This document shows positions 2,594 to 33,645 of a stretch of 33,645 bases of DNA, piece after piece. A model generated the notes under the pieces. The model saw only the letters and a list, made by a program, of their open reading frames with translations, was not told where the DNA came from and searched no databases. The stretch spans positions 1 through 33,645 of the IMG/VR virus record IMGVR_UViG_3300049595_003044; one strand, 5' to 3'. The translations under genes and the position numbers were made by a program. Every line of letters starts with the position of its first letter. The stretch's first letter is position 1. The stretch is from a virus.

Positions 2594-2631
2594 TGTGTAT
2601 TGTTTTTGTCTACCTATAAATATGCTATCTA

Positions 2632-10822: not shown

Positions 10823-10845
10823 AAATTGTATCATTTATTATTCTG

Positions 10846-10853
10846 CAAAGATA
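10846..10853 (-). promoter_or_regulatory. Possible Bacteroidetes -7 box (TATCTTTG)
   Basis: TATCTTTGCAG on the minus strand is a perfect TAnnTTTG match, 24 bases before the ATG at 10822, inside a 58-base intergenic gap that is rare in this compact region. The -33 region reads TTTTACG and has no TTG, so the site is only half supported. It could give the last two glycosyltransferases of the cassette their own promoter. Confidence 0.4.
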
Positions 10854-10880
10854 CATAAAATATTTTAAACATTCGTAAAA

Positions 10881-11921: not shown

Positions 11922-11922
11922 A

Positions 11923-12552: not shown

Positions 12553-12554
12553 TA

Positions 12555-14597: not shown

Positions 14598-14628
14598 TAT
14601 AGTTATGTTTTACTAAATCCCATACATG
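14589..14628. repeat. 40-bp direct repeat, left copy (glycosyltransferase tail remnant)
   Basis: These 40 bases are identical to 15299-15338. Read leftward they encode the tail HVWDLVKHNYNG and a stop, the exact C-terminus of the GT8-like gene at 15300-16049. A few further codons upstream (ETQVT against TERVK) still look related before an in-frame stop. The copy overlaps the start of the next glycosyltransferase gene. Confidence 0.9.
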
Positions 14629-14684
14629 TGTTACCTGAGTTTCGTTTTAAAACTCAAAAATAATTTTTACAAAACACATAAATT

Positions 14685-15233
14685 TTATAGTAATCTATGT
14701 TTTTTTACCGCAGAACCATCCCAAATACAACCTGAATTCATATCAATTGAATATATCCATTCATATTCTTTTGATTTTCGGTGTAAATCTCTAACATTTA
14801 AATCTTCATAATTTGGAAATTCTATACCTTTATATTTTTTGGAAACTAAATCCCAATCTATGTTATATGGATAATTTGTGTTTGTGCTATATTGTCTTGT
14901 GAAATCTATGTATGAATCTTCAGTGTTCAAAGTAAGAATTTTACTCGTATCTAAATATAATTTATAAATATAGACATCACTCTTCATTACATCTTTCAAT
15001 GATGTGTTATCCTTAGCATCCCAAGTAACACCATACTTCTTGAAATTAATCCAATTACTTCCAAAACCATACCATAGTCCACTAGGTTTTCCAAGTACAT
15101 CTTTGTTTTTACTTTTAATTTCAATATTTTGAATAGGTGTTTTACTAAGGTGAACCCTTTCATTTTTACCTAACACCAACCTTTCGTTCAATAACTCTCT
15201 TGTTATTGTTGTTAAAAATCTTCTTAATTTCAT
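14685..15233 (-). CDS. Unknown protein in a cassette between direct repeats
   Basis: A 182-residue protein that is not a recognisable glycosyltransferase. The N-terminus is basic (MKLRRFLTTITRELLNERL). The centre has HLSKTPIQNIEIKSK, a Trp/Gly-rich KPSGLWYGFGSNWINF, and the end reads WIYSIDMNSGCIWDGSAVKK. The arrangement of an early HLSK and a GLWYG...W segment faintly recalls ADP-ribosyltransferase-like toxins, but this is only a visual impression. It is flanked by 87- and 66-base non-coding gaps, unusual in this region, and by 40-bp direct repeats, all of which suggest a recently inserted moron-like gene. It has its own A/T-rich leader. Confidence 0.7.
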   Translation of the reverse strand: MKLRRFLTTITRELLNERLVLGKNERVHLSKTPIQNIEIKSKNKDVLGKPSGLWYGFGSNWINFKKYGVTWDAKDNTSLKDVMKSDVYIYKLYLDTSKILTLNTEDSYIDFTRQYSTNTNYPYNIDWDLVSKKYKGIEFPNYEDLNVRDLHRKSKEYEWIYSIDMNSGCIWDGSAVKKHRLL

Positions 15234-15298
15234 CTGTATTTTATTTTTACTATATATATATAATTTAAAAAAAATCCATCTTAAAATTATATTTCGTT

Positions 15299-15338
15299 AT
15301 TATCCATTATAGTTATGTTTTACTAAATCCCATACATG
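15299..15338. repeat. 40-bp direct repeat, right copy
   Basis: Exact copy of 14589-14628. It lies in the 3' end of the GT8-like gene, encodes that enzyme's last 12 residues and includes its TAA stop. Distance between copies is 710 bases, enclosing the 182-residue gene. Confidence 0.9.
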
Positions 15339-16049
15339 CTTTACTCTCTCAGTTCTACTCTCTATGTCAAATCCTGTAAAGTGCCATATGTTCCCATACT
15401 TTATCATATGTAGTTCATCTGAATGCAATTGGGTATTGCTCTTAAACCAACCTTTAGAAAACATTCCTAGAATATTCCAACTTCCATCCAAAAATTTTAT
15501 ATTGACATTATTTTTTGCGAGATGGAAATTTAATATAGTCTGCTCTCTTCCACCCCCCTTATCCCAATTATCTAACTCCGTTCTATTTTTTAAATAGAAA
15601 TTAAATATTTCTTCGAATAAAGGTAAGTATAGTTTATGGAAAAACATAACACCCGTATTACCATAATTTGTAATGTCTAGTGGAACTCCTTTAAAAAATT
15701 TACCGTAATTCTTTATGCTGTCATATACCCAAGCCCAATTAACTAAATCTCTAACCATACAGAAATCTTCTTCGAACATATCAAATACATTAGGTGCATC
15801 CCATTTTATCATAGTATCGGCATCAACTATACCAATCTTATCATAACCTACTCCATGTTCGAATATAAGTTCTTTATTCCACACAACTCTACCACATCGT
15901 TCATCATTAGTTTTGATTACTTTAAGGTCACAGTTATTATTCTTACACCAATACTCCCAACTTTTTATACAATATTTTGAGTATTCATTATGGTCAATCT
16001 TAGCAGAGTCAACTGTTATGCTGATTATATATATTAAATTCTTAGCCAT
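15300..16049 (-). CDS. GT8-like glycosyltransferase
   Basis: A 249-residue GT-A enzyme. YSKYCIKSWEYW is followed by IGIVDADTMIKW with the DxD metal site at residues 76-78, NTGVMFFHK, GGGREQTILNFHLAK and a C-terminal IWHFTGF with the His typical of retaining GT8-type enzymes. It is a clear paralog of the next gene upstream, sharing SKYCI-SW, IVD-DT and the R-QT-LNF pattern. The ATG at 16049 overlaps the previous stop by eight bases and is preferred to the longer frame. Its last 40 bases are repeated at 14589-14628. Confidence 0.85.
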   Translation of the reverse strand: MAKNLIYIISITVDSAKIDHNEYSKYCIKSWEYWCKNNNCDLKVIKTNDERCGRVVWNKELIFEHGVGYDKIGIVDADTMIKWDAPNVFDMFEEDFCMVRDLVNWAWVYDSIKNYGKFFKGVPLDITNYGNTGVMFFHKLYLPLFEEIFNFYLKNRTELDNWDKGGGREQTILNFHLAKNNVNIKFLDGSWNILGMFSKGWFKSNTQLHSDELHMIKYGNIWHFTGFDIESRTERVKHVWDLVKHNYNG

Positions 16050-16770
16050 AGTACATATTAAATAATTCATCCATAAGCATATTTCTATAATCTCTATCCA
16101 TAGCATTAAAATGAGTTACATAGGTATACTCACTTATAACATTCTTATTTAATGCCCTTTTAGATATTAGTCCCTGAACATTGTATCGAATGTCCATTAC
16201 TTTTAAAGATATATGATTATACTTTTCTTTTATATATTTTCTTATTAGAAAATTCAAAACCGTTTGGTCTCTACCTACTCCATAAGAAGTTTGAATAGAA
16301 TTCAGGTCATTATAATTTGCCAAAACATAATTTCCTATGTCTTTGTATAAATCTATTGAATTTCTATCTAAGACTATGAAACCTGAATTAAAGTACTCAA
16401 ATGGTGAAACTATATCTAAATCACTAAACTGATGCTTATGGTATGCTTCTATGCTTCTCACTATCCAATCATAATCAGTATCATCTAAAGATACTCCAAT
16501 CTCATTAGGTTTAATGCTATCGAAGAAATTAGGGCATTTAGGATTAACTATAGTATCATTATCTACTATAGCTATCTTATCAAATTCTATATCAGACTCT
16601 TCTAATACCTGCGTTGCAAATACTTTCATCCAATGAGGTTCTATACTATTTACATCTACATCATATTCTATAACTTCGATGTTGTATCTTCTTCCCCAAA
16701 TTTTCCAAGAGTCTATACAGTACTTTGAATATTTGTTATTTCCTAAATTAACTATGTATATGTAATTCAT
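16042..16770 (-). CDS. GT8-like glycosyltransferase (paralog of the next gene)
   Basis: A 242-residue GT-A protein. YSKYCIDSWKIWGRRY near the N-terminus is followed by IAIVDNDTIVNP (metal-binding DND, residues 70-72), FNSGFIVLDR, GVGRDQTVLNFLIRK and YVTHFNAMDRDYR with a C-terminal His. The order of motifs matches the neighbouring GT8-like gene, so the two arose by tandem duplication and then diverged. It overlaps the upstream GT2 gene as ATGA. Confidence 0.83.
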   Translation of the reverse strand: MNYIYIVNLGNNKYSKYCIDSWKIWGRRYNIEVIEYDVDVNSIEPHWMKVFATQVLEESDIEFDKIAIVDNDTIVNPKCPNFFDSIKPNEIGVSLDDTDYDWIVRSIEAYHKHQFSDLDIVSPFEYFNSGFIVLDRNSIDLYKDIGNYVLANYNDLNSIQTSYGVGRDQTVLNFLIRKYIKEKYNHISLKVMDIRYNVQGLISKRALNKNVISEYTYVTHFNAMDRDYRNMLMDELFNMYYG

Positions 16771-17510
16771 AAACTTTTATATAATTCGTTTTGTTTTTCT
16801 TGTCTAGCAATACTTTTAGGATGGTATAAGCAATAAACTTTATCTAAAGGAAGCCTAGACACTACAGAAGCTCCTACAACAGTTTCATGAACTTTACCTT
16901 TCCATTTAATAGTATCTTTATTCCTATACAATCTTGCTTGATAATCAGGAAAATTTATGATAGGCTCTTTATACATTATACTTAATCTATCCTGTATCTC
17001 CTTTTCAGATATTACTAAATCAAAATGCTTAAGCATAAAAAAGTTATCATCGAATTTCTCTATTTCTCTATGGTTCTGTATTAAGTCATCACTGCTAATA
17101 TTCCAATTCCATTTCTTAATATGTTCTATAGTAATTCCATCAACTGTATTTACTCTTGGAATGTATATTAAATCCAATGACTCAGGATTTGATTGGATAA
17201 TATCCGTAATATTTTCAGCTAAATCTTTAGAAGGGTATTCATCCGCATCTAACTGAAATATCCAATCCTTTTCACATAGTGAATTTGCTACATTTTTATA
17301 CCTAGCGAAATCTCCATCAAAAGATTCTCCATGAACTATAGTATCAGAATTTAATTCAACATACCTTTCGATAACCTCTAAAACTTCAGACGTTACTTGG
17401 TTAGTATCATATTGAATAACTACTTCATCTTCATCTTTTGGGAATATAGACTTGAGTAATCTATCTAATTCTTCATGTTCATTGCATACTGTAATTAAAT
17501 AACTTATCAT
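16767..17510 (-). CDS. Family 2 glycosyltransferase (WaaE/KdtX-like)
   Basis: A 247-residue GT2 enzyme of the type that adds sugars to lipopolysaccharide core. ISYLITVCNEHEELDRLLKS is the N-terminal signature, FDGDFARYKNVANSLCEKDW the donor-positioning helix, and FQLDADEYPS carries the DxD (88-90). The C-terminal NFPDYQARLYRNKD followed by WKGKVHE is characteristic of this subgroup. All expected motifs are intact. It is coupled by ATGA to the downstream GT8-like gene. Confidence 0.9.
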   Translation of the reverse strand: MISYLITVCNEHEELDRLLKSIFPKDEDEVVIQYDTNQVTSEVLEVIERYVELNSDTIVHGESFDGDFARYKNVANSLCEKDWIFQLDADEYPSKDLAENITDIIQSNPESLDLIYIPRVNTVDGITIEHIKKWNWNISSDDLIQNHREIEKFDDNFFMLKHFDLVISEKEIQDRLSIMYKEPIINFPDYQARLYRNKDTIKWKGKVHETVVGASVVSRLPLDKVYCLYHPKSIARQEKQNELYKSL

Positions 17511-17513
17511 ATT

Positions 17514-17996
17514 CTAGTTATTTAGACTTTCATAAGATATATTAACAAAATGTTTGAAAGCTTCAGTGAATTTATCCTTTGGGAAATTTACAGAATTTTC
17601 AAAATCAATATAATTCTCTAAATACTTTCCGATGTTGTTTGGGTCAGGATACTTCTTAGACTCATCTTCACTTAATTTTTTTATAGGAGTTACCTGCCAC
17701 ATAAATGTTGTACCATCAACGTCATCAGGAATTGGATATATAGATGACGTATCAGTGGCCTGCATACAAGGAATCCAAACATTACGATTTCCATCAACCA
17801 CCCTAAAATTAAATGCTGTTTTAGCAATACTGCTTTCTAACTTGTTTAATGTTTCAGAACCATCAATAAGGAATGAATTTGTTGTATAACCTGAATCCAT
17901 ACATATTTTTGACGTAAGTCCCGTAGCATCGTCCTGTTCTACCAATACACTCAAATTATGTGTTATTGGAGATATTTCATCATAATTACTTTTCAT
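17514..17996 (-). CDS. Conserved phage protein of unknown function
   Basis: A 160-residue protein starting ISPITHNLSVLVEQDDATGL and SKICMDSGYTTNS, with a Trp-containing MWQVTPIKKLSEDESKKYP in the second half. From memory, proteins with this THNLS...CMDSGY...P-I-x-L-S-E architecture are found in marine T4-like and other large phages, where their function is unknown; I cannot confirm it here. It has no glycosyltransferase motifs, although it sits inside that cluster. It is a soluble, probably mixed alpha/beta protein. Gaps to both neighbours are three bases. Confidence 0.7.
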   Translation of the reverse strand: MKSNYDEISPITHNLSVLVEQDDATGLTSKICMDSGYTTNSFLIDGSETLNKLESSIAKTAFNFRVVDGNRNVWIPCMQATDTSSIYPIPDDVDGTTFMWQVTPIKKLSEDESKKYPDPNNIGKYLENYIDFENSVNFPKDKFTEAFKHFVNISYESLNN

Positions 17997-17999
17997 AAT

Positions 18000-19268
18000 T
18001 TATATTTTTAATTTTGGAAGATTCAAAACAATCTCTTCGGCTACCTTAATACTATCTAGTATGCCGTATAATTTCTCAGACATTTTTTCAAATGTAAAAT
18101 TTTTACTAGTATACTTTTTCTGATTTTCAGCCATTTTTTTATATTCTTTGTAATTATTTTCCAAAGACTGTAAAACTTTCATGGCATATACATAATTTAC
18201 GGTAAACCACTTTGCTTCTTTCATAAACCATGCATTTTGTACAGATTTATGTACATCTGTCAAATCACCGGGCAAGAGGACACACATCTCAGTATTCAAA
18301 AAATCAACTTGACCTGACCAATTAGATGCTACCACAGGTTTACCTGACGTAGTAAATTCTAATAAAGGTCTTCCAAATCCCTCTCCCTTAGTAAACGAAA
18401 TCATTGCTTTAATCTTTGAATAGTTATATAACTCATTCATTTCAGATTCTGTCAAATTACCATGAATTATATAAACCGATGGACAGTTTTTAATCTCCTT
18501 AGTAATATAATTAATCCTTGACTTCATCTCTTGTAAATCATGTACACTATAATTAGCACCACTTGTTTTAAGAATTAATGCAGGTCTTGTAGTAGATGGT
18601 TTATTCTTAAAGGTCTCACAGAATATTTTAATGAGCATCCCGACATCTTTCCTGTCTTGTCCCAAATCACCTTCCAACCAATGACCTACAAATAAATAAC
18701 AATTAGACTCTTTAATAGGATTTAACATACTTCGCATCTTATCCGAAGTTACAGATACTGTTTTATATACTGAAGTATCCACTCCTTCAAATAATACTTC
18801 TAGTTTTAGAGAATCTTTTAACTTTACAGTATCTACTAATATGTCTGTATCTTTTTCATGCTTATCAAATATTGAATTTTTGAATACATCTATAGTATGA
18901 TTACTCGTACCTATAACCATATCCATATTATTGCATCCCTCAATCCATTCAGGTTTACATAAATCTGTTTCAATACCCGCAGTAATTCCTATATTATATT
19001 TTCCTAATCTGATAAATTCATTCGGAATTGTTATCTGTATAAATATATCAGGGTTAGGTGTATCATTGTTAACTATATGTTTCTCAATAATCTTACCCTT
19101 TTCAGTATTGACATCTAAACCATCCCATGCTGTAGAGCCCCAATTTAAAGGATGTATCTCTAATTTGTATTTAGGATTTTTTATAATAGAGTATGCAATA
19201 TCTCTTGAGTGGTCTCCGTATCCTGACCTTGTCATAATCGGAGCATACATTAAAACTGTTTTTACCAT
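18000..19268 (-). CDS. Family 4 glycosyltransferase (GT-B fold)
   Basis: A 422-residue full-length GT-B enzyme. The N-terminal Rossmann domain begins VLMYAPIMTRSGYGDHSRDI, a loop typical of GT4. The C-terminal domain starts at VLFEGVDTSVY and CYLFVGHW. It carries the donor-binding signature FTKGEGFGRPLLEF with the E-x7-E glutamates at 296 and 304, followed by SGKPVVASNWSGQVDF. This is a complete, probably active retaining transferase. It follows the split GT4 pair by one base, so the two are adjacent relatives. Confidence 0.92.
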   Translation of the reverse strand: MVKTVLMYAPIMTRSGYGDHSRDIAYSIIKNPKYKLEIHPLNWGSTAWDGLDVNTEKGKIIEKHIVNNDTPNPDIFIQITIPNEFIRLGKYNIGITAGIETDLCKPEWIEGCNNMDMVIGTSNHTIDVFKNSIFDKHEKDTDILVDTVKLKDSLKLEVLFEGVDTSVYKTVSVTSDKMRSMLNPIKESNCYLFVGHWLEGDLGQDRKDVGMLIKIFCETFKNKPSTTRPALILKTSGANYSVHDLQEMKSRINYITKEIKNCPSVYIIHGNLTESEMNELYNYSKIKAMISFTKGEGFGRPLLEFTTSGKPVVASNWSGQVDFLNTEMCVLLPGDLTDVHKSVQNAWFMKEAKWFTVNYVYAMKVLQSLENNYKEYKKMAENQKKYTSKNFTFEKMSEKLYGILDSIKVAEEIVLNLPKLKI

Positions 19269-19269
19269 A

Positions 19270-20199
19270 TTACCAAGTTATTCCTATGTTTTTAGATGAA
19301 TTATCAATATGACTTACTACTTTTTCTACTGTAAAAGATTCTCTAGGTTTCCAATCAGATAATAGTCTATCTATATGCTTTACAAATCTATTTGACATTT
19401 CAATAGAAGACATCCCACTCTCTTTAGTTAGAGCCCATTCTCTACCCTTCTTCCCAAAATTTTTCCTATCATCCCTAGACATGTTATACCAATAGGCTAT
19501 AGCATCTGCAACATCTTCGAATTTACATCTATCATCAAAAATATATGGAGTTACTACAGAGCCTTGCAAAGACCTATTAGACGGGAATACAGGTTTTACC
19601 CATTCACCATGATTCTTGTATGTACCTGCATGATTAGATGATACATCCATATCAAAATCTATCCAATTACCATTCTCGTCTGAGAATCTACATTGGTCTT
19701 GTAAACCTCCTGTAACATTGTTTATAATAGGAGTACCTGCCATAATAGATTCAGCACCGCTAAGTCCAAATCCTTCATTACTAGCAATATTTACAGTAAC
19801 ATCAGCTAAGTTATACATGAAATTTAGTTCTTTAACTCCTAATTTCTTATCTGAGAATATAACTTTGTAATCATTACACAAGGTATTCTTGACTGCAATC
19901 AAATCCGTACCATTCTCATCTACAGGTTCAGTATGCATCAATAAACATACTCGTGAAGATTTATCTTTGGGTAGACTATCACAGAATTTTCGGTATGCTA
20001 ATATTAAGTCTCCTGATTGTTTTCTTCTAATATTTCTATTATTCCAAAATATCAAAAAATCTACATTGTTGTTTACTCTAAATTCATCCTCAAAATTTTT
20101 GAACTCTGTAAAATCTTTGTGTCCATCTTCAATGGGATGATAATACTTTGAATTGATACCATGAGGTACAAATGCCGTATAAACTACTCTATTACTCAT
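19270..20199 (-). CDS. C-terminal half of a split GT4 glycosyltransferase
   Basis: A 309-residue protein that starts where the second Rossmann domain of a GT-B enzyme normally starts (VVYTAFVPHGINSKYY). It contains DFLIFWNNRNIRRKQ, LLMHTEP and the donor-binding SNEGFGLSGAES (Glu142 and Glu150 form the E-x7-E motif), then AGTPIINNVTGGLQDQ. It lacks the N-terminal acceptor domain, which is encoded by the upstream gene. The ATG at 20199 overlaps the upstream stop by eight bases (ATGAGTAA), in a different frame (+1). It could work as a two-chain enzyme by coupled translation, or the pair could be one gene broken by an indel. Confidence 0.85.
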   Translation of the reverse strand: MSNRVVYTAFVPHGINSKYYHPIEDGHKDFTEFKNFEDEFRVNNNVDFLIFWNNRNIRRKQSGDLILAYRKFCDSLPKDKSSRVCLLMHTEPVDENGTDLIAVKNTLCNDYKVIFSDKKLGVKELNFMYNLADVTVNIASNEGFGLSGAESIMAGTPIINNVTGGLQDQCRFSDENGNWIDFDMDVSSNHAGTYKNHGEWVKPVFPSNRSLQGSVVTPYIFDDRCKFEDVADAIAYWYNMSRDDRKNFGKKGREWALTKESGMSSIEMSNRFVKHIDRLLSDWKPRESFTVEKVVSHIDNSSKNIGITW

Positions 20200-20740
20200 A
20201 TAATTCTATAATATTTACATTGTTATTAACTAATACGTTTTTATGTATATTGTGTGATTGTTTACTAATTCCTAATACCATATCGCAAGAAGCATACGAC
20301 ATCCAATTATAATTTGGAAACGGAGTATTATCCCAAATAGCGTAGTATATAATAGGACAATGAGACCTAACTTCATGTTCCATCTGATACAACCATTGCC
20401 AAAATCTTGGGTCTGTAAAATGGATTATAGCATCAGGCTTTATAGTTTTTATCAAGTATCTTAAGATGTGCGGGTCTCCGTATCCATTCCAAGGCATTAC
20501 TTTAACATCTGCATGGTCTATACCTAACTCATTGTTAACATCGTCAGATACATCAATTATCTTCCCTATTTCAGGGTGTTCGATTGCTGCCCCTAATTGA
20601 AACCAATTATAATGTTCAGCAGTTCCGACAACAATTTCTCTACTCATAGTACCAATTCCTGAATGAAGTCTTAAGTCATCAGAAAGAAGCAGTATTGTTT
20701 TCTTCTCAGGTTTACTTTTTTTTAATTTTAATAATTCCAT
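20192..20740 (-). CDS. N-terminal half of a split GT4 glycosyltransferase
   Basis: A 182-residue protein with the N-terminal domain of a GT4 enzyme only: TILLLSDDLRLHSGIGTMSRE, MPWNGYGDPHILRYL, IIHFTDPRFWQWLYQMEHE and MVLGISKQSHNIHKNVL. In related single-chain enzymes this last stretch runs directly into a VPHGI segment; here it ends in ELYE and a TAA, and VPHGI appears in the next gene. The chain therefore stops at the interdomain linker, a point at which separate folding is possible. Confidence 0.85.
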   Translation of the reverse strand: MELLKLKKSKPEKKTILLLSDDLRLHSGIGTMSREIVVGTAEHYNWFQLGAAIEHPEIGKIIDVSDDVNNELGIDHADVKVMPWNGYGDPHILRYLIKTIKPDAIIHFTDPRFWQWLYQMEHEVRSHCPIIYYAIWDNTPFPNYNWMSYASCDMVLGISKQSHNIHKNVLVNNNVNIIELYE

Positions 20741-22584: not shown

Positions 22585-24903
22585 TTAATGACCATCTAAA
22601 AAATTTGTAGCTATTTCGGGTGGAGCTTTCAATGTAACTCCATCTAGGGTAGTTGTATTTTCCATAATATACTTTACTATTGGAATAAACTCTTCTATCC
22701 TGTCTTGTTCAATCTCTACAATTAATTGGTCATGTATCTGAGCTATTACTTGTCCTTTAGAACCTCTCTTACTTAATTCTCTGTTTATGTGCAATGCTGC
22801 TCTGTTTACTATAGATGCAGCTAATGATTGTATTTGAAAATTTAAACTTGAGTTGTAAGCATTCTTTAAATCTCTATATAGTGATATAGCACGTTCTTCT
22901 CCCAATTTTTTTACTAATTTATCTCTATGGTCATAGTCTAGTACTTTATCCCCATATTCATCAAATACTTTCTTACCTCTCCATAGATGTCTTACTCTTC
23001 CTAATTTGTTACGTATCATTCCTGTGCTTTCAAATTCTTTTTTTGAGGCTTGAATCCAATCAGCCACACCGGGGAATCCCTCCAAGTAAGCATCTCTAAG
23101 TTCCTCTCCCTCTGCTTTTTTAATATTCAAACTCTTAGCCAATGCAAATCCTGTCATACCATAAGCAATACCTAAAGCATATGCCTTAGCTTTCTGTCTC
23201 TTGTTAGCATCAATCTTTTTAAGAAAATTAGGAGCATTCTTATCAGCAGATACACCTTCTAACTTTTCAGTTCGTATAGCAACTGTACTATAAAAATCAT
23301 GACCTTTATTAAATATTTCTTGCAAATTAACATCATTTGATATACTAGCAAATATATGTGGCTCTAATGATTCATAATCTGAATCTATGAACTTATACCC
23401 ATCTCTAACCTTAAAAAATGCCCTTACCCTATTGTTGAATTCTAATACTATAGGGTCATCATCGCCCTCCTCTTTAGGTTTAGGTAACTGTTGTAAATCA
23501 CTCCCATACCTTCCCGATACTGTACCATGCTGTTTAAAGTATGGGTAAAATATACCATTCTTATTCTTCTCTAACAATCTTTCTACATACGTTGAATATA
23601 TCTTAACTAACTTATTGTAAACTCTAAGTTTAGTAGCCCATGTATACTTTGAACTTATGCTCTCAATAAATATATCATTAAACTGTGACGTTCCTGAGTC
23701 AGTTTTAGATATAGGTTTTAAACCTAAATAGTTAAAAGCTATTTCAGATAAATGCTTTTTAGATTGTATATTAATTAAATCTCCACTATTATAATCTATC
23801 CATAATAATAAACTTATTTTAGATAGCTCTGATACAGGAACTCCGTGGTCACTAGTATGGTCTATTAAGAATCTTTTGTACGGAGAATCTTCCAACTTTT
23901 CTATTTCTTTTTTAAGCAATCTTACTTCTCCTTTAGCATCTAAAGATAAATTTAAATTAGCATTTTTAACTAACATTTTAGCAAAGACACCTCTATTTTT
24001 TGGTGGGAAGTTATTCACATATGATTGCTCAAATATCCAATCTTTTACTCCTTTAATAATTTTTAATTCAGATATTACTTCATTTTTCTTTTCATTTATT
24101 ACATTTAACATTTCATCCTTTGTCTTATGTAGCAATTCTATATCTAATTGAATTCCACGTCTTTCCATTGGAATTGTAACTTCCTTATATACAGGCATTA
24201 CTTCATCTTCGAAAAAAAACTTATCTAGTTTCTCCTCATGTAACTTACCATAAAAAAGATTAGCTACTCTAAGAGTTAAATCAGTATCTGCTGCTGCATA
24301 TTTAGATAGTATGTCTAAATCTGCTTTATAGATTTGATATTTATTTTTGGTTGTTGAACCTCCATTCTTATGGATACTATCTTTCAATTCAATCTGCTCC
24401 TTATTTGCTTCATCTTCTATATTTAATCCTAGTTCTTGTTGATACATTTGAGCAATAGATTTCAATCCGAATGGAGTTCCAAAAGAAAATGCACCCTCTT
24501 CTTGTACTGTGTGAACTGCTAACATAGTATCCATCCATAATTCAGGAAGCAAATCTATTCCGTATTGATTATTTATTATTGAAGTATCAAAAGAAGCATT
24601 GTGCATTACAACTTTCTTTTTATCTTTCTTTATCTTTTCTAATATTAGTTTAAGTATATCCTTAGAAGGTATACTATCTATATAACATTCCTTTAAACTA
24701 TCAGATTCAGAGTCATATACTTGAGTAGGTATGTAATATCCATTACCTATTTTAGTTGAAAATGATGCCCCTATTATAGAATCGGTATGAACATCTATAC
24801 CTGTAGTTTCTGTATCGACAGCTACTATATTAGTTGCCTCTATAGAATCAAATAATTCTAAAAATTCACCTCTAGTAAATACAGTTTTATATATTTTGTC
24901 CAT
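22585..24903 (-). CDS. polA: Family A DNA polymerase with 3'-5' proofreading domain
   Basis: A 772-residue replicative polymerase. The exonuclease domain has VAVDTETTG (Asp30, Glu32), HNASFD (Asp106) and YAAADTD (Tyr202, Asp206). The polymerase domain has SGRYGSDLQQLP, motif A DSDYESLEP (Asp509, Glu514), motif B KRQKAKAYALGIAYG (Arg569, Lys573, Leu577, Tyr581) and motif C IHDQLI (His724, Asp725). All catalytic carboxylates are present. There is no 5'-3' exonuclease domain; that job lies with the separate gene at 29256. The motif B position equivalent to E. coli Phe762 is Leu577. The enzyme replaces the family B polymerase found in T4-type phages. Confidence 0.97.
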   Translation of the reverse strand: MDKIYKTVFTRGEFLELFDSIEATNIVAVDTETTGIDVHTDSIIGASFSTKIGNGYYIPTQVYDSESDSLKECYIDSIPSKDILKLILEKIKKDKKKVVMHNASFDTSIINNQYGIDLLPELWMDTMLAVHTVQEEGAFSFGTPFGLKSIAQMYQQELGLNIEDEANKEQIELKDSIHKNGGSTTKNKYQIYKADLDILSKYAAADTDLTLRVANLFYGKLHEEKLDKFFFEDEVMPVYKEVTIPMERRGIQLDIELLHKTKDEMLNVINEKKNEVISELKIIKGVKDWIFEQSYVNNFPPKNRGVFAKMLVKNANLNLSLDAKGEVRLLKKEIEKLEDSPYKRFLIDHTSDHGVPVSELSKISLLLWIDYNSGDLINIQSKKHLSEIAFNYLGLKPISKTDSGTSQFNDIFIESISSKYTWATKLRVYNKLVKIYSTYVERLLEKNKNGIFYPYFKQHGTVSGRYGSDLQQLPKPKEEGDDDPIVLEFNNRVRAFFKVRDGYKFIDSDYESLEPHIFASISNDVNLQEIFNKGHDFYSTVAIRTEKLEGVSADKNAPNFLKKIDANKRQKAKAYALGIAYGMTGFALAKSLNIKKAEGEELRDAYLEGFPGVADWIQASKKEFESTGMIRNKLGRVRHLWRGKKVFDEYGDKVLDYDHRDKLVKKLGEERAISLYRDLKNAYNSSLNFQIQSLAASIVNRAALHINRELSKRGSKGQVIAQIHDQLIVEIEQDRIEEFIPIVKYIMENTTTLDGVTLKAPPEIATNFLDGH

Positions 24904-24922: not shown

Positions 24923-25204
24923 TCAAAACTCACCATATAAATCATATTTCTTTGGTTTTGGTTTCTCAATCTCCACATAATTTTCATGAATTGCATATAA
25001 TTTTCCTTTTAATGGTGATAACTTATAATCTCCACTAAAGTTAGTAGCTCTCATGTACTCGCTAAGGGTCTCTACAAGACCTTCTATTACATCATCTGAC
25101 GTTGAGTTATGTTTAGGGTCGATGAGAGTCCACCTATCGCCAGGTGGAACTCTATTAGCTATCAGCATATCTTCTTCCCTCAGTTCCTTATCTTTTTTAC
25201 TCAC
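24923..25204 (-). CDS. Hypothetical protein between polymerase and reductase genes
   Basis: A 93-residue protein with a GTG start at 25204 that overlaps the stop of the reductase alpha gene (GTGAGTAA), indicating coupling. It is hydrophilic: an N-terminal charged stretch (MSKKDKELREEDMLIANR), a DPKHNSTSDDVIEGLVETL helix and a proline/lysine tail (EIEKPKPKKYDLYGEF). No cysteines are present, so it is not a glutaredoxin. Its position suggests a role in dNTP supply or polymerase function, which is inference only. Confidence 0.65.
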   Translation of the reverse strand: MSKKDKELREEDMLIANRVPPGDRWTLIDPKHNSTSDDVIEGLVETLSEYMRATNFSGDYKLSPLKGKLYAIHENYVEIEKPKPKKYDLYGEF

Positions 25205-26837
25205 AACTTTTGCAATCTAATATGTTTCGAGAAAATTCCTGTGCTGAACTCTTACTATATTGATAATACAAAGTTTTAACACCCTCCTCATGCGCATACA
25301 TATATAACATATTTATATCCTTAGCAGATACCGATGGGTCTATTGAGAGATTTAAACTCTGTGCTTGGTCAATATATTTCTGTCTTTGAGCAGCTTGTAA
25401 TACAATTTCTTTAGGACTTATCTCTGAGAATGTTCTAAAAACTTCTTTAGTTGGGAAATCTAAATGTTGAACAGAACCATCCTTCTTCATAATGCTATCC
25501 CAAATCTCATCAGTATCTAAACCATATTTTTGTAATTCTTTTTCTAAATATGGATTCTTGTATACTGTTTTTATTTTAGCTAAATCATTTACAAAATAAT
25601 TTGATTTATAAGGTTGTATACTCATAGATACCTGACCTAATATGAAACTTGTTGACTTAGTAGGAGCTATAGCAATCAAAGTTGTATTAGCATAATTATC
25701 TCTAATACATTTATATTTCTGAGGGTTGCTCTCGTACAACTCCATTGATGCATTATCACATTTTTCTTTTAATCTCTTAAATATAGCATGATTAATCTGT
25801 TTAGCTGCTAATGATTCAAATGCTACTAACTTAGATTGTAATAATGAATGGTATCCTAAAACACCTACCCCTATAGCTCTATGATTCTTAGCAAAATTAT
25901 GAGCTCTTTTCATACCATCTAAATTCTCAGATTTTCGTATGAATTCATTTATAACAGCATTCAAGAATTGTACGTACACTTCTATAGCATCTGTCTTTAC
26001 AATTTCCTCCCAATGTAACAAATTTATAGAACCTATGCAACATACAAATGATTCTTCTGAATTAGATGGAAGTTGAATTTCGGAACATAAATTACTTGCT
26101 ACTATCTCTGTAGAATACTTATGTTTAATGTTAGCATATGGAGTGTTTCTATTTGAAGTATCTCTGAACATTATGTATGGGTATCCTAGCTCTACTCTTC
26201 TTTGGATTATCTTCGCCCAAACTTTTCTCTTATCCGAATCTCCATTCTTCATTTCCTCCATCCAAGAGTCTCCAATGGTAACTCCATATTGTAAATTTTG
26301 AATAGGATTGCCCTCAGTTGCAATATCTAGGAAATCTAGTATGTCTTTATGTTCTACAGGTAGATATACTGCACATGCGCCTCTACGAGCCTCTGATTGT
26401 TTACAAACATCTACAGCGGTATCATATAGTTTAGCGTAATGGATAGGCCCGTCAGCTTTCCCACCCGTTCTTATCTCAGAACCTCTTGGTCTAATATTTC
26501 CTAAATATGCAGAAGTTCCTCCCCCATACTTAGACATCATGCCAATCTCTGTTGAACTTTCAAGCATACTAAACAAACTGTCATCCACATAAGAACCATA
26601 ACATGATATGGGTAATCCTTTATCTTTTGCAAAGTTAATCCATACAGGAGTCGATAAACTATAGAAACCTTTAGACATATAGTTTTCAAACTTATCAGCA
26701 AATCCTTCTATTTCAAGTATACTTTCAGCTGCTTTTGAAATTTCTCTCACTCTCTGTTCAGCAGATTCTGATATGTAACCTCTTGACAAAAATGTCCTAG
26801 AATCTTCATTAAGCCAATAATAATCTTTATAATTCAT
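25197..26837 (-). CDS. nrdA: Ribonucleotide reductase class Ia, alpha subunit
   Basis: A 546-residue catalytic subunit that makes deoxyribonucleotides. Active-site residues are present: Cys79 in ISCYGSYV, Asn249-Leu-Cys251-x-Glu253 in NLCSEIQLPS, a Cys at 266 or 267 in VCCIGS, the tyrosine pair Tyr524-Tyr525 in TLYYQYSKSS that passes the radical, and a C-terminal CKSC redox pair (542, 545). It is about 200 residues shorter than bacterial NrdA because it has no N-terminal ATP-cone; the sequence begins at the catalytic barrel region. It should therefore lack dATP feedback inhibition at that site. Transcription runs from the beta subunit gene into this one. Confidence 0.96.
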   Translation of the reverse strand: MNYKDYYWLNEDSRTFLSRGYISESAEQRVREISKAAESILEIEGFADKFENYMSKGFYSLSTPVWINFAKDKGLPISCYGSYVDDSLFSMLESSTEIGMMSKYGGGTSAYLGNIRPRGSEIRTGGKADGPIHYAKLYDTAVDVCKQSEARRGACAVYLPVEHKDILDFLDIATEGNPIQNLQYGVTIGDSWMEEMKNGDSDKRKVWAKIIQRRVELGYPYIMFRDTSNRNTPYANIKHKYSTEIVASNLCSEIQLPSNSEESFVCCIGSINLLHWEEIVKTDAIEVYVQFLNAVINEFIRKSENLDGMKRAHNFAKNHRAIGVGVLGYHSLLQSKLVAFESLAAKQINHAIFKRLKEKCDNASMELYESNPQKYKCIRDNYANTTLIAIAPTKSTSFILGQVSMSIQPYKSNYFVNDLAKIKTVYKNPYLEKELQKYGLDTDEIWDSIMKKDGSVQHLDFPTKEVFRTFSEISPKEIVLQAAQRQKYIDQAQSLNLSIDPSVSAKDINMLYMYAHEEGVKTLYYQYSKSSAQEFSRNILDCKSCE

Positions 26838-27894: not shown

Positions 27895-29259
27895 CTAAGA
27901 ATTTTTGAATTCTGCAAACATATTGTAAAAAGATTCTCTTTCTTCAGCTCTTTTCGAACTATCTAAAGATGATACGTCTTTTTTAATTTTCATAGCATCT
28001 CCCGAATTTTCTCTGAATATTTCTATATTACCATTAGAAGCATCAAACTTTGTCGGAAATGTTACACCATCTGCTCCAAATCTATTTTTAATAACATGAA
28101 ATCTTCCAATACCTAATACTTTATCTTCAGCTCTTCGTGATAATGACATTATAAAATCACCAATAGCTATCTTACTATAATCTTCAGATATTTTATCTGC
28201 TTCTATAATTTCTGAATCTAGGCTTGACCTATTTGTTTGAGAAGCTGTCCATATAGGACAGTTATATTCCGCTGATAAACTTCTAAGTCCCTCATAAATT
28301 TGCTTTAATTCAAATCTCAACTCTTTATTATGACCTTTTAATAAATCAGCATAATCTACTATTATCAAATCAGGTGTATTTGATTGTCCTATGCATCTAT
28401 CGATATGAGATTTCATAGTTAATATCGAAGCAGTTTTTGCAGCAAACTGTTCTACTATTAAAGTTCCTTTTAAATTTTTTACCTTATCCTCAACTTTATC
28501 CTTATGTAGTAATAAATTTGAATTGTTTAGCCCTGTGATAATACTGTCATATCTCCTTGCAGTATATATTTTATTTAACTCTAGTGTATAATGTACTACG
28601 GTCTTTCCTGCAATTAATGCATTAGCACCTAAAGCTGATAGTACCCATGATTTTCCTGCTCCCGCAGGTGCTATTATTATCCCTAGTTCTCCCGATGCTA
28701 AACCACCTTGAAGTAAATCATCAATACATTCCCAACCTGTAGTAACTGTATTTCTAAAATTTTCACTATATCTTTCTTCAAATTGGTCTTTATATATATG
28801 ACCTATGTCTCTTGTGTAGCCTGATTTCAATGCAGAATCTAATGTAGATTTTACTCCATCATAATCCGAAGCATTAAGTAATTCTACACATTCTAATATT
28901 GCTCTTTTAATTTCTTGATTTCTGCAAAAATCTACAGATTGTTCTTGTACATATTTTAAATCATTCGAATTAGCATACATTTCAGCCCTCCTAAAATACT
29001 CTTGTATCTCTTGCTTGAGTAGACTTTGAGTATCAGGCAACTTAGCTAATTCAGTACTGAACACAGTAATTGATGGGGATTGTCCATATTTAAAATAATA
29101 ATCTAGTGTACTTTTTATAATCCACTGAGATGCATTGCTAAAAAAATAAGTTGGCTTTAATATATCCGAAATTTGAGTTAGGAATGCAGTATTATCAATT
29201 AACGATACAATTAATTTGTATTCGAAATCTTTACCGTAACTACTTATGATGTTTGTCAT
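27895..29259 (-). CDS. DnaB/gp41-like replicative helicase
   Basis: A 454-residue hexameric-type helicase. The N-terminal 150 residues are helical, as in the DnaB N-domain. The RecA-like ATPase domain starts at TTGWECIDDLLQGGL, with Walker A APAGAGKS (197-204), Walker B LIIVDYADLL (Asp302), an arginine-rich region SRRAEDK and IGRFHVIKNRFG near the end. It unwinds the fork for the PolA-type polymerase. The ATG at 29259 overlaps the stop of the exonuclease gene as ATGA, which decides the start over a longer TTG- or ATG-based frame. No primase is present in the window. Confidence 0.93.
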   Translation of the reverse strand: MTNIISSYGKDFEYKLIVSLIDNTAFLTQISDILKPTYFFSNASQWIIKSTLDYYFKYGQSPSITVFSTELAKLPDTQSLLKQEIQEYFRRAEMYANSNDLKYVQEQSVDFCRNQEIKRAILECVELLNASDYDGVKSTLDSALKSGYTRDIGHIYKDQFEERYSENFRNTVTTGWECIDDLLQGGLASGELGIIIAPAGAGKSWVLSALGANALIAGKTVVHYTLELNKIYTARRYDSIITGLNNSNLLLHKDKVEDKVKNLKGTLIVEQFAAKTASILTMKSHIDRCIGQSNTPDLIIVDYADLLKGHNKELRFELKQIYEGLRSLSAEYNCPIWTASQTNRSSLDSEIIEADKISEDYSKIAIGDFIMSLSRRAEDKVLGIGRFHVIKNRFGADGVTFPTKFDASNGNIEIFRENSGDAMKIKKDVSSLDSSKRAEERESFYNMFAEFKNS

Positions 29260-30290
29260 TTCTTTAAGTTTTTTAAATAATTTTTCCAAAATAAAAAATC
29301 ATGTTCATTTTTACATAATTCTATATGGAAAAAAATGGTTTGTAACTTCTGTACTTCTAATTCAGGTAAGTCTCTCTTTGAAATTGCTAATATATTAGAT
29401 TGTATATCCCCTGACATATTGGGTGTTAGCAATTGCATAAGTTCGTAATTCCTATAGGCAATCTCACTCTGATTTACTATATTTTCGAATATCTTTGCTT
29501 TAGGATTCGCACTGTACTGTATCTTACTTTGCTCTACTATATCATCTATAGTTATGTGTTTGTCTGTTGTATTTAAATTGAAATGCTTATTCAATCCTAC
29601 TTCTCCAACTTGTTTTACACCTGCTATGTTATCAGTCCTATCACCTACAAAACATCTGTATGTTAAGTAATTTAATGGAGTATAACCATATAATGATACA
29701 GTAGATTCTTCCGATATTAATAGTTTCTTCTCATGCGAATATACAAAAGTTTTCTCATCTATTAACTGCAAATAGTCTCTGTCAGAACTCATAATAATTT
29801 TGGAAGATTCCTTACTAAGAACCTGTTTACATAGATATGCTATCACATCATCAGCCTCCACACAATCTATTATAATTGTTTTAACAGGCATTATTGATAG
29901 AGAATTAACTAATAAATTTAACTGCATTCTTTTAGATTCATTCTCATTTAGAATTCCTCTAGTATCAGCAAATCTATTGAAACTACCCGCACTTAATACT
30001 TTTTGCTTGTATTCTTTATGCAAATGTCTTCTTCTAACACTTCCACCTTTTCCATCAAATACTACATATATAGACGTTGGAGAATAGTCTACTATTGCTT
30101 TATATATAGTTCTGAAAAATCCTAGTATTCCACCAACATGGTCTCCTTCATAGTTTAATGTAGGGACAGCTTGAAAATTTCTAATAAAAACATTCAAGCC
30201 GTCCACAATCAAAATCTTATCCTCTACTACATTTTCTGAGGATTGACTCTCCTTAAACTTTTTAAATTCCTCAAATGAATCAGTAATCAT
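29256..30290 (-). CDS. 5'-3' exonuclease / RNase H (FEN family, T4 Rnh-like)
   Basis: A 344-residue flap nuclease that would remove RNA primers and flaps. The metal-binding carboxylates are all visible: Asp30 in ILIVDGLNV, Asp79 in VVFDGKGG, Glu145, Asp147 and Asp148 in VEADDVIAYL, Asp170 and Asp172 in SSDRDYLQL, and Asp217 and Asp220 in VGDRTDNIAG. The last stands in front of the H3TH motif GVKQVGEVG. The RRRHLHKEYK segment is the usual basic arch. It overlaps the RecA-like gene by 11 bases; the TTG at 30308 is rejected in favour of the ATG at 30290. It supplies the activity missing from the polymerase. Confidence 0.93.
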   Translation of the reverse strand: MITDSFEEFKKFKESQSSENVVEDKILIVDGLNVFIRNFQAVPTLNYEGDHVGGILGFFRTIYKAIVDYSPTSIYVVFDGKGGSVRRRHLHKEYKQKVLSAGSFNRFADTRGILNENESKRMQLNLLVNSLSIMPVKTIIIDCVEADDVIAYLCKQVLSKESSKIIMSSDRDYLQLIDEKTFVYSHEKKLLISEESTVSLYGYTPLNYLTYRCFVGDRTDNIAGVKQVGEVGLNKHFNLNTTDKHITIDDIVEQSKIQYSANPKAKIFENIVNQSEIAYRNYELMQLLTPNMSGDIQSNILAISKRDLPELEVQKLQTIFFHIELCKNEHDFLFWKNYLKNLKK

Positions 30291-31425
30291 CTTCGTTATC
30301 CTCTTCAATTATTATAGTGTCGGTATCCAAAGCTTCATTTATATTATACTTGAATATCATTTCATCACATAAATGATTATAAACAATTTCCTTATATTTT
30401 GGATTTGATATAATCTTATCGTAAAATTGTTTAGATTGGAATTTAATCTCTTCAAGTACCTCTCCTGTTTCTTTATCTACAACTCTGTAAGTATACCATG
30501 CACCATTTAAATCAACTATCTTTCTATTAGACATCTCATCCAACCATGAACCATAGTTGTCCATACCTGAATTGTAATAGATTTTATAGCTAATACTTCT
30601 ATTGGCAGGCCCTAATCTGTTCTTCTTCACATGAGCAACAGACTCTACTCCGATATGATGTTTCTTACCATTCTTTTCTACAGATACTTTTTTACCTGCT
30701 TCTAGTCTTAGTCTAACAGATGAGTGGAATGGTATACCTTTTCCTCCTGAAGTAGTATATATGTCACCACCCAATGCTCCCAATCTTACTCTAAGTTGAT
30801 TAGTAATTATAAGACATACTTTGTGTCTGCCTATATAATTTGTAATCTTTCTCATTGCCTGAGATATGATTATGGACTTACTAGTATTCCAACCTTGTTT
30901 ATCAAATCCAATAGCTTTTTCTGCTTTGGTAGTTGCTCCCATTATGGAATCGATAACAATGGTAAGTAATATGTCAGGGTTTTTTTTCCTGATTTCAATA
31001 ATCATTTGTTCTATAGTATCAAATATATCTTCTACAGTATACATTGATAAATACAACATCTTAGACACATTGACACCTATAGCTTTCATGAATTCCTCAC
31101 TTGCAGCATTCTCAGTATCTATATAAACAGCTATTCCACCTTTTTCTTGGGTTGATTTCATTGCATGACAAGCCAATAATGATTTACCTGATGCCTCCAT
31201 TCCCGAAATTTCGGTGATTCTCCCTACAGGAAAACCACCGTTTTTTCTATTTGAAATAGCAATGTCTAACATATCATTCCCTGAGGATACCCAATCTGAT
31301 ATATCAGATGGATTCGAATCTGAACCGTCTAAGAAATAGGCAACCTTATCAGTAGATTTTTTAAATATACCGTTTACATAGTCAGCTAAATCTTCCTCTA
31401 TCGAGTTATGATTTTTTTTAGACAT
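30280..31425 (-). CDS. RecA/UvsX-like recombinase
   Basis: A 381-residue strand-exchange ATPase. Walker A GMEASGKS (75-82), catalytic glutamate in YIDTEN (Glu105), Walker B TIVIDSIMG (Asp159), the ITNQLR sensor (208-213) and the DNA-binding loop region GGDIYTTSGGKGIPFHSS are all present. The C-terminal tail is highly acidic (DTDTIIIEEDNEDDY), as in RecA proteins where it regulates filament assembly. It would load with the gp32-like protein encoded just upstream and drive recombination-dependent replication. Spacing to both neighbours is tight. Confidence 0.94.
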   Translation of the reverse strand: MSKKNHNSIEEDLADYVNGIFKKSTDKVAYFLDGSDSNPSDISDWVSSGNDMLDIAISNRKNGGFPVGRITEISGMEASGKSLLACHAMKSTQEKGGIAVYIDTENAASEEFMKAIGVNVSKMLYLSMYTVEDIFDTIEQMIIEIRKKNPDILLTIVIDSIMGATTKAEKAIGFDKQGWNTSKSIIISQAMRKITNYIGRHKVCLIITNQLRVRLGALGGDIYTTSGGKGIPFHSSVRLRLEAGKKVSVEKNGKKHHIGVESVAHVKKNRLGPANRSISYKIYYNSGMDNYGSWLDEMSNRKIVDLNGAWYTYRVVDKETGEVLEEIKFQSKQFYDKIISNPKYKEIVYNHLCDEMIFKYNINEALDTDTIIIEEDNEDDY

Positions 31426-31432
31426 TATTTAG

Positions 31433-32323
31433 TTATTTGGAATTAAGTAACCTTTCGAATTCTAGCATAGCGTTTGACACTTGAGGAGACTCAACAGTCA
31501 TCGGATTACTTGGAAAAGCATTTGATGAATTTGATGATTCAACAGTTGGTGACGGGATGCCTAATGATTGGGAAGTTCCACCACTATTATTAGGAGTAAA
31601 AGTTGGTGCAATATTACCTGCCATATGATTACCTATTGCCTTATCTACAAAATCTGTATTAGGCTTTGGATATAGATAATTTTCCAATACTTTAATCAAC
31701 TCCTCTTTCGTTGGTGCTTTAAAAATATCTTCCAATTTTGGCACTTCAGATAGTGCTTTAGCACCTACTTCATTATCAGAAAACGCAGCGGTCTTATTAG
31801 GCTTAATCATAATTGAAGTACTAGGATATCCATCTCCTTGCTTCTTATGGTACTCAACATAGATGTCGTTACCATTTGTCAAGTCTGATATATCTCCGTA
31901 GTCTCCACTGTTTAAAAATTTGGCTAAAGTTGCATAAACAGCTTCCGTAAAACCATAAAATCTAACTCCCTTGCTTTCTTCCCCTCTTACCAAAATTGGA
32001 GCATATACTCTCAATTTAGGTTCTAGCTTCTTCCCTCTTATCCAAGAATCTTTGTTTCCCTCTGCTTGTAGTTTCTTAGCCCACTGCATAATTGGGTCAT
32101 CCATTCCGTAAGTCACAGGTGAGACAATAGGTTTTTCTGATAAACCGTAATGGAAGTAAATTCTTCTTAAGGAGTCTGTTGGCTCGTGTGGGTAGGGTAC
32201 GATTCTAATGATGTGTTCCTTTTCAGGTTTCCAAAATAAATCATCATTCTTTGCTGAATCTTTTGACGTTTTTTTATTCAAGCGATTAATATCATCTTGA
32301 ATAGCTGAGAAATTAATTGGCAT
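31433..32323 (-). CDS. gp32-like single-stranded DNA-binding protein
   Basis: A 296-residue protein. A basic helical N-terminus (DINRLNKKTSKDSAKND) is followed by an OB-fold-like core with WKPEKEHIIRIVPYPHEP, RRIYFHYG, KLRVYAPILVRGEESKGVRFYGF and DIYVEYHKK. A Pro/Ser/Asn-rich flexible linker near 235-280 leads to a short hydrophobic-acidic end (AMLEFERLLNSK). This layout is that of T4 gp32-type proteins: cooperativity end, DNA-binding core, protein-interaction tail. The protein has no cysteine at all, so the zinc site of T4 gp32 is missing. It is encoded directly upstream of the recombinase, as expected for its partner. Confidence 0.88.
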   Translation of the reverse strand: MPINFSAIQDDINRLNKKTSKDSAKNDDLFWKPEKEHIIRIVPYPHEPTDSLRRIYFHYGLSEKPIVSPVTYGMDDPIMQWAKKLQAEGNKDSWIRGKKLEPKLRVYAPILVRGEESKGVRFYGFTEAVYATLAKFLNSGDYGDISDLTNGNDIYVEYHKKQGDGYPSTSIMIKPNKTAAFSDNEVGAKALSEVPKLEDIFKAPTKEELIKVLENYLYPKPNTDFVDKAIGNHMAGNIAPTFTPNNSGGTSQSLGIPSPTVESSNSSNAFPSNPMTVESPQVSNAMLEFERLLNSK

Positions 32324-32345: not shown

Positions 32346-32777
32346 TTAAAGATATATTGATTTTTTAAAATCCAAATTTACAAAAACTAATCTCTCTTCA
32401 AAATATGCTTCTGAAGTAGACTGTTCGTCAGCAGGAAATCTCTTCACTATAAGAAGTACATCCCTATAGTTTTCCCAATCTATTTGATAACTCTTATCTA
32501 AAATTCCATTGTTCAATACCTTGATTAATGAATTTAATGCATTAATGGTGTATAAGGTATTTGTGTGTTTCTTCTTATTTATTGATATAGTGTTCTTAGC
32601 CAAACCATCTCTCAAATTGTCTTCAGTATTATAAACTAATACCGAGCTATGTGGATTGTCTCTGTCTGTATACATATAAAACTTATTGTTATATATTTTA
32701 TAATACGTTGATAAGTAATCAACAGTTAGACTCAGCGAATCATTAGAAGTAAATGTACATAAAAATTGTCCTTTCAT
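32346..32777 (-). CDS. Conserved hypothetical protein of the replication module
   Basis: A 143-residue soluble protein between the polymerase-like fragment and the ssDNA-binding gene. The N-terminal half is beta-rich (FLCTFTSNDSLSLTVDYLS, YYKIYNNKFYMYTDRD). The second half has KKHTNTLYTINALNSLIKVL and YQIDWENYRDVLLIVKR. No catalytic motif is seen. It may be a small replication accessory factor, judging from position only. Confidence 0.7.
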   Translation of the reverse strand: MKGQFLCTFTSNDSLSLTVDYLSTYYKIYNNKFYMYTDRDNPHSSVLVYNTEDNLRDGLAKNTISINKKKHTNTLYTINALNSLIKVLNNGILDKSYQIDWENYRDVLLIVKRFPADEQSTSEAYFEERLVFVNLDFKKSIYL

Positions 32778-32792
32778 AATAAATCTTTTTGG

Positions 32793-33645
32793 TTAGCATA
32801 CGATGCTAAATAGCTCCATATCTTTGTAGTTTTTTCCTTTTTTTACTTTGCTATTAATTAATATTTTTTTTACATCTTTTAATAAATCATAACCATCTTC
32901 TACGTTATAATCTATTAATATTGAATCATAGGTGTATAATATCATCTTAGATTTTTTGTTGTCTAACAAGGTATTCACTCCATGTATAAATAGCATAGAA
33001 AGTTCAGTTTCTATCATTTGTATATAATAACTGAATAGTTTTGATTTATTCATTTCATCACTTACTGAAAGTTTTCTTTGGGTTATAGGGCTTTCTATAT
33101 ATCCTATAGTTTGGTACTGCTCCCAAATTTTTTCTTTAAGTGAATATACTTTATTAAAAAAATCTACATTATACCTATCACATAAGTCTTTATCATCTTT
33201 ATATAGTAAAGTAAAACTTATCTTCTTACTATCCTCATATTGAGATTCTGTAATAGTATCCGTATTAAAATACATTTTTGCGAAATGTGTGTGTAATGAT
33301 TCTATATCTGAAAAATCATAGTTTAATAACTTTCCAATAATCCTAATGTGATAGGAGTCAAAATCATACTCAACTAGATACCCACTATCAAATCTACTTA
33401 TAAAATTCAATCTACTATCATCTTTTTTATTTATAGCTGAATAGTTAACTCCATCATATACATTAGATGGTCTACCTGTTTTAGTATGAATATTATAGAG
33501 AACTTTTACAAAGTTATTTGAATATTTTCTATTAAAATTAGAGTTGAAAGAATCTAATTCTACATACATACAATTTTTTTCTATAATTTCTATAGAGGGA
33601 TAAACTACATTTGTATAAAATTCAGATGCCTTAGATATGTCTAAG
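32793..33645 (-). CDS. Second family A polymerase-like protein, N-terminus beyond right edge
   Basis: The frame is open from the window edge through a Met at 33569 to a TAA at 32795-32793, so the start is not visible. Numbered from that Met, the protein resembles the palm and fingers of a family A polymerase. YLVEYDFDSYHIRIIGKLL matches motif A with Asp69 kept and the usual Glu replaced by His74. SKKISFTLLY matches the K-x3-F-x3-Y part of motif B. SYYIQMIETELSMLF resembles the helix before motif C, and YTYDSILIDY matches motif C with Asp215 kept. Both metal-binding Asp are present but several flanking residues differ. It is distinct from the full polymerase at 22585 and could be a variant polymerase, a primase-like enzyme or one half of a split enzyme. 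Confidence 0.72.
   Translation of the reverse strand, partial: LDISKASEFYTNVVYPSIEIIEKNCMYVELDSFNSNFNRKYSNNFVKVLYNIHTKTGRPSNVYDGVNYSAINKKDDSRLNFISRFDSGYLVEYDFDSYHIRIIGKLLNYDFSDIESLHTHFAKMYFNTDTITESQYEDSKKISFTLLYKDDKDLCDRYNVDFFNKVYSLKEKIWEQYQTIGYIESPITQRKLSVSDEMNKSKLFSYYIQMIETELSMLFIHGVNTLLDNKKSKMILYTYDSILIDYNVEDGYDLLKDVKKILINSKVKKGKNYKDMELFSIVC

Follow-up and report, generated by a model that had tools for sequence, protein, structure and literature searches.

A predicted thumb-less, proofreading-dead family A polymerase in a constant replication module of tailed phages

The gene cut by the right edge of the viral DNA analysed here encodes divPolA1, as judged from its sequence a diverged, proofreading-dead and thumb-less family A polymerase of tailed phages, which in this phage is carried in addition to a complete PolA. 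We propose, with a probability of about 0.5, that divPolA1 acts as an accessory, non-proofreading polymerase for short stretches, in gap filling or primer replacement and/or in the extension of UvsX D-loops. The window, that is the whole stretch of DNA under analysis, comprises all 33,645 nucleotides of IMG/VR record IMGVR_UViG_3300049595_003044. The gene is not a fresh discovery: its family was described as divPolA1 by Yutin et al. in 2024 (Virol J 21:200, PMC11348598), who named it from 14 phages, immuto among them, that have a regular polymerase of family A, B or C as well. In the literature searched the name occurs only in that paper and its preprint, and the text of the paper (PMC11348598) contains no occurrence of the term steric gate. 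Beyond the published account, the present analysis adds the size of the family, its linkage to a small protein that we call h143, a primase survey, motif statistics, the fixed gene order and the coexistence with mostly family B polymerases.

The window-edge gene and its full-length copies

The open reading frame at the right edge (33644-32793, minus strand) has an open 5' end and, as the window is the complete IMG/VR record, the assembly ends within the gene. It and the other polymerase gene of the window are located as follows.

32793..33645, minus strand: divPolA1, a family A polymerase-like protein of 413 aa, of which the window covers the C-terminal 283 codons; the other 130, at the start, lie beyond the window edge
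22585..24903, minus strand: complete PolA (3'-5' exonuclease and polymerase), the presumed replicase; PF00476 E=1.6e-60, PF01612 E=1.9e-15

The extension past the right edge advised in the initial annotation was available from near-identical contigs (L002-L009 and L014), which carry the gene with 99-100% identity over the fragment seen in the window (L002 shows no difference in 849 nt), extend further and supply the N-terminal 130 codons. The full-length protein read from these longer contigs has 413 residues and starts 390 nt past the window edge. The Met at 33569, from which the initial annotation had numbered the protein, is internal residue 156 and not the start; its Asp69 and Asp215 correspond to D224 and D370. 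Contig G001 (59 kb) carries divPolA1 together with a complete PolA that is 100% identical to that of the window, where the full, proofreading PolA noted some 8 kb from the edge gene indeed lies 7.9 kb away and has its exonuclease motif residues. Four pairs of divPolA1 genes gave dN/dS values of 0.09-0.16, indicating purifying selection, and these values together with the full-length copies in dozens of loci rule out a pseudogene. In IMG/VR at least 562 related stretches were confirmed, the longest contig among them measuring 197 kb; divPolA1 is present, too, in LR756508, a record of 484 kb.

Family A membership and predicted fold

The window protein alone matched neither a Pfam nor a PHROG family. 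In tblastn it found the 'DNA polymerase family A' of Flavobacterium phage immuto (immuto35A_1, the type example of the published divPolA1) at E=3e-37 and Twort-type PolAs at about 1e-7. The immuto homologue scores 42.7 bits against PF00476, above the cut-off of 34.3, and the same profile is matched by 52 of the 56 full-length divPolA1 members (best 5.5e-14); the proposed PF00476 search thus failed with the window protein and succeeded with its full-length relatives. A profile built from the 56 members matches the Klenow fragment of E. coli DNA polymerase I (E=7.7e-7), in an alignment that brings all three motifs into register and pairs D224 and D370 with Klenow D705 and D882. The AlphaFold2 model of divPolA1 (pLDDT 94.3, pTM 0.90) has Klenow (1kfd) as its top Foldseek match in the PDB (E=2.4e-16, TM 0.68), its best PDB matches being Klenow and other Pol I enzymes at TM 0.68-0.70, and in a viral structure library it matches phage PolAs. 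The structural match to Klenow spans the whole length, including the N-terminal part. A structure without a right-hand palm had been named as an outcome that would speak against a polymerase; what is predicted is a family A palm and fingers fold with Klenow as the best solved match.

Taken via the family, the homology goes beyond chance and, on the strength of the sequence comparisons, we regard divPolA1 as securely a relative of the family A polymerases. The profile match to Klenow, the predicted fold and the presence of PolA both in the window and in G001 bear out the view of the initial annotation that a second, diverged family A polymerase stands beside a complete PolA. The window protein belongs to a distinct branch, with about 27-36% identity to most members, and shares with the published divPolA1 its status as an extra to a regular polymerase, a probably dead exonuclease, the reduced thumb, the conserved palm and the replication neighbourhood. 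A match of immuto35A_1 to a reverse transcriptase-associated PolA model in a defence library (E=6e-7) is explained by shared PolA homology. As a point of annotation, the Microcystis phage Mel-JY01 protein labelled 'DNA polymerase I TIGR00593' (L022:16874-17914, WWT39339) contains only the 5' nuclease domains PF02739 and PF01367 and is thus misnamed; the PolA-like protein of this phage is in fact WWT39333, annotated as hypothetical.

Active-site motifs

The three polymerase motifs of the window gene lie at these positions.

33348..33365, minus strand: motif A, DFDSYH; Asp at 33365-33363, His in place of the steric-gate Glu at 33350-33348
33201..33239, minus strand: motif B, Y-x3-K-x3-F-x3-Y; Tyr at the Arg754 position, with Lys, Phe and Tyr kept
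32922..32936, minus strand: motif C, Y-T-Y-D-S; Asp at 32927-32925, Tyr in place of His at 32930-32928

Residues were counted in 59 non-redundant members, which had been picked from IMG/VR because they matched a pair of short conserved patterns in the region of motifs A and C. The catalytic Asp residues of motifs A and C, already recognised in the initial annotation, are invariant (59/59 each). The equivalent of the steric-gate Glu710 is His and that of His881 is Tyr in all 59, as had been read from the window gene, the 59/59 counts being partly built in because the choice of patterns favours a gate His and a Tyr-Asp pair in motif C; the few members found outside that choice, namely L018 and L020 from a first scan with other patterns and immuto, Mel-JY01 and LR756508 from tblastn, agree. 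The K-x3-F-x3-Y spacing of motif B is likewise kept, with K270 (Lys758), F274 (Phe762) and Y278 (Tyr766) each present in 58 of 59. The replacement of the motif B Arg by Tyr, on the other hand, is true of the window gene and of 43 members but is not family-wide, the Arg754 equivalent being Arg in ten, Ile in four and Met and Leu in one each. Two further Klenow residues are retained throughout (Arg188 for R668 and Gln339 for Gln849, 59/59 each), a Glu (Glu342) has been gained at the Ala852 position in all 59, and the Glu883 equivalent is Ser in 52 and Ala in seven. Compared with Klenow, divPolA1 therefore keeps the equivalents of Arg668, Lys758, Phe762, Tyr766 and Gln849, and shows the changes Glu710 to His, His881 to Tyr, Glu883 to Ser and Ala852 to Glu. 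Among 12 sampled PolAs, from E. coli and phages and including the window phage's own, the Glu, Arg and His of motifs A, B and C are invariant.

The Ser after the motif C Asp is not an RNA polymerase signature, as it is also found in Twort-type and HMO-2011-type DNA polymerases. These are the nearest intact PolAs by profile score and, unlike divPolA1, are full-length replicases with a thumb and with Glu, Arg and His in motifs A, B and C. T7 RNA polymerase belongs to the same superfamily, and it too is without the motif A Glu and has Ser after the motif C Asp; at the positions occupied by His, Tyr and Tyr in divPolA1 it has Gly, Arg and His, and the divPolA1 profile does not match it. Family A polymerases exclude rNTPs by the motif A Glu steric gate (PMC10639073), and mutation of this Glu alone admits them (PMC4215692). 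The change from Glu to His at this position suggests that sugar selection is altered in divPolA1 and that some use of rNTPs may be possible.

Missing thumb, shortened segment after motif B and probable loss of exonuclease activity

The thumb of Pol I is located between the IE-NG and T-x-TGR segments. These two segments are separated by 18-36 residues in divPolA1 and by 122-232 in the 12 PolAs, and about 90 thumb residues are absent from divPolA1. The distance from the motif B Tyr to the next conserved Phe is 12-14 residues, compared with 21-44 in PolAs, and by eye the exonuclease DxE motif is absent. Relative to Klenow, then, the protein is without a thumb, shorter after motif B and probably without an active exonuclease, in line with the truncated thumb and the exonuclease domain with all three Asp replaced that were described by Yutin et al. 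2024 (PMC11348598). In barbaviruses, divPolA2 is likewise an additional PolA without a thumb that accompanies a regular polymerase; by that paper's description (PMC11348598) it is set apart through its other N-terminal domain and variable gene context.

A constant module with a constant partner

Downstream of divPolA1, the window contains the following genes.

32346..32777, minus strand: h143, 143 aa, no family assigned, constant partner of divPolA1 (67/67, reciprocal 47/47)
31433..32323, minus strand: gp32-like single-strand DNA binding protein (SSB); phrog_224 E=4.7e-5, phrog_1192
30280..31425, minus strand: UvsX/RecA-like recombinase; PF00154 E=1.6e-40
29256..30308, minus strand: 5'-3' nuclease, Pol I N-terminal domain family (FEN type); PF02739 E=1e-27, PF01367 E=4e-5
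27895..29289, minus strand: DnaB-like replicative helicase; PF03796
26858..27874, minus strand: ribonucleotide reductase small subunit; phrog_86 E=8.9e-64
25197..26837, minus strand: ribonucleotide reductase large subunit; phrog_84 E=1.5e-137

The order divPolA1, h143, SSB, UvsX, 5' nuclease, DnaB on one strand is kept with 0 violations, and all five downstream genes are present in 37 loci. Where the contigs hold enough sequence, h143 follows in 67/67 loci, SSB in 43/44, UvsX in 38/39, the nuclease in 29/29 and DnaB in 24/24. Starting reciprocally from h143, divPolA1 was found in 47/47 loci with enough upstream sequence, some contigs being common to both sets, and across 50,697 phage records the two genes occur in the same six. 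The divergence of divPolA1 tracks that of UvsX (Mantel r 0.73 over 42 loci, 0/999 permutations as high), hence the module appears to be largely inherited together. The partner h143 has the conserved core TNTLYTINALN...NNGVLD and a confident AlphaFold2 model (pLDDT 93.9), for which the PDB holds no solved match at E<=0.001; searches of h143 against PHROGs, Pfam, PDB sequences and PDB folds returned nothing credible.

Main replicases and primase in the same genomes

The main replicase found alongside divPolA1 is PolA in the clade of the window and in immuto and PolB in 10 of 20 records; in some divPolA1 records, possibly incomplete ones, none was found. The 484-kb record LR756508.1 holds divPolA1, family B matches over two open frames and a PolC-type frame of 575 aa (260.6-266.9 kb and 47.4 kb). 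The divPolA1 module is thus constant and the main replicase varies, between families A and B here and among A, B and C in PMC11348598. To call divPolA1 the second polymerase is accordingly right in that it is extra to a complete PolA, and misleading in evolutionary terms.

No primase had been visible in the window, which we trace to the fragment: the nine divPolA1 records of at least 110 kb all encode a DnaG-type primase (phrog_47), as do 0 of 11 records below 65 kb, and in those nine it lies at least 39 kb from divPolA1, too far to be seen in a 34-kb window. The primase of immuto is immuto35A_179. With a primase in every record of at least 110 kb, a substitute is not needed, and a role of divPolA1 in replacing a missing primase is ruled out.

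Origin of divPolA1

In a tree of the palm, all divPolA1 proteins form one branch with support of 100/100. The best tree joins this branch with HMO-2011-type PolA (95/83), a union with herelleviral PolA is equally good, and a clade shared with the phage's own PolA passes the AU test (p 0.29). The divPolA1 profile scores 57 bits with HMO-2011-type, 43 with Twort-type/herelleviral and 3 with the phage's own PolA; a duplication of the phage's own PolA, although not rejected by the tree, is not supported by these scores. Twort-like and Listeria herelleviruses have their sole PolA just upstream of SSB and a UvsX-like recombinase. A Twort-type origin by synteny was nevertheless set aside, as only the PolA position and UvsX agree and SSB and h143 do not match. 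Listeria phage LP-124 (L188:1289-4568) has a layout resembling the divPolA1 module: two genes encode the exonuclease and the polymerase of its PolA, and the genes that follow immediately downstream lead to a RecA-like recombinase.

Proposed role and alternatives

In the role that we favour, divPolA1 would add short stretches of nucleotides while a separate enzyme serves as the replicase. The module nuclease is of the Pol I N-terminal type (PF02739/PF01367), so that the module would hold the parts of a split Pol I, with the 5' nuclease, four genes downstream, on one chain and the dead exonuclease and polymerase on the other, a putative pairing read from gene order. Such a split Pol I would replace primers and fill gaps, and/or divPolA1 may extend the 3' ends in UvsX D-loops. 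Lacking a thumb, divPolA1 would be distributive alone, and h143 or SSB may keep it on DNA. The specialised recombination polymerase that the initial annotation had considered would fit the SSB-UvsX neighbourhood. Gap filling alone, however, does not explain the invariant gate His, the motif C Tyr or the gained Glu342. The 5' nuclease is also common in T4-like phages without divPolA1, and to our knowledge many phages manage without any divPolA1-like enzyme.

The altered gate could also mean a primer-making or RNA-synthesising polymerase, in which loss of the Glu permits rNTPs and the enzyme initiates short RNA primers or elongates them, for instance on DNA opened by UvsX. The gate chemistry described above and the presence of DnaB helicase in the same module argue for it, whereas the DnaG-type primase of all the longer records argues against, as do the Gly gate of T7 RNA polymerase with its retained motif B Arg and motif C His, the failure of the profile to reach that enzyme and the PDB matches, which are DNA polymerases. 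His is moreover bulky too and may still exclude the 2'-OH, and we consider an RNA or primer polymerase unlikely.

A translesion polymerase inserting opposite damage, aided by its shortened fingers and lack of proofreading, would account for the dead exonuclease (PMC11348598), the short stretch after motif B and the missing thumb, and would suit the company of recombination genes. The protein is, however, without pol theta- or pol nu-type inserts, is strictly linked to core replication genes rather than repair genes, and coexists with PolA and PolB replicases with no visible preference, all of which makes lesion bypass improbable in our estimation.

We also doubt that divPolA1 is a former replicase, an ancestral PolA beside SSB and UvsX that was displaced by an acquired polymerase and shrank to a minor or structural job. 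The herelleviral arrangement and the profile's preference for HMO-2011-type and Twort-type PolA over the phage's own speak for such a history, but the Twort SSB is not detectably related to the module SSB, h143 is without a counterpart there, and the tree leaves the branch unsettled. This scenario furthermore concerns origin and says nothing on present function.

A more speculative combination, to which we attach little credence, is that divPolA1 and h143 together make up a thumb-less polymerase of two parts, with h143 in place of the thumb and an active site rebuilt by the gate His, the Tyr ahead of the motif C Asp and the gained Glu342; this polymerase would accept rNTPs and synthesise short RNA or RNA-DNA at UvsX or helicase-loading sites; if true, the pair would be a new kind of Pol I-derived priming or patching enzyme. 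The altered contact residues and the missing thumb might suggest that divPolA1 serves the replisome as a scaffold without catalysis, its active site a fossil. We regard this as very improbable, since the two metal-binding Asp and Lys270, Arg188 and Gln339 vary little or not at all even between very diverged members, and a scaffold would need none of them.

The divPolA1 family occurs in many large aquatic phages whose replicases belong to different families; a module kept while the replicase varies makes divPolA1 a candidate core part of the replisome that work on T4 and T7 leaves unexplained. A natural His at the sugar-selecting position combined with a lost thumb provides a natural test of what these parts are for, and the constant partner h143 is a directly testable lead.

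Other features of the window

Between the structural and the replication genes, the window contains a dense block of glycosyltransferase-like and methyltransferase-like open reading frames (8667-20740, minus strand), and the immuto annotation has a similar block at 49-60 kb. An open reading frame at 1643-2638 (minus strand) encodes a subtilisin-like serine protease, recognised by eye from its GTHVAGI...GTSMAAP signatures.
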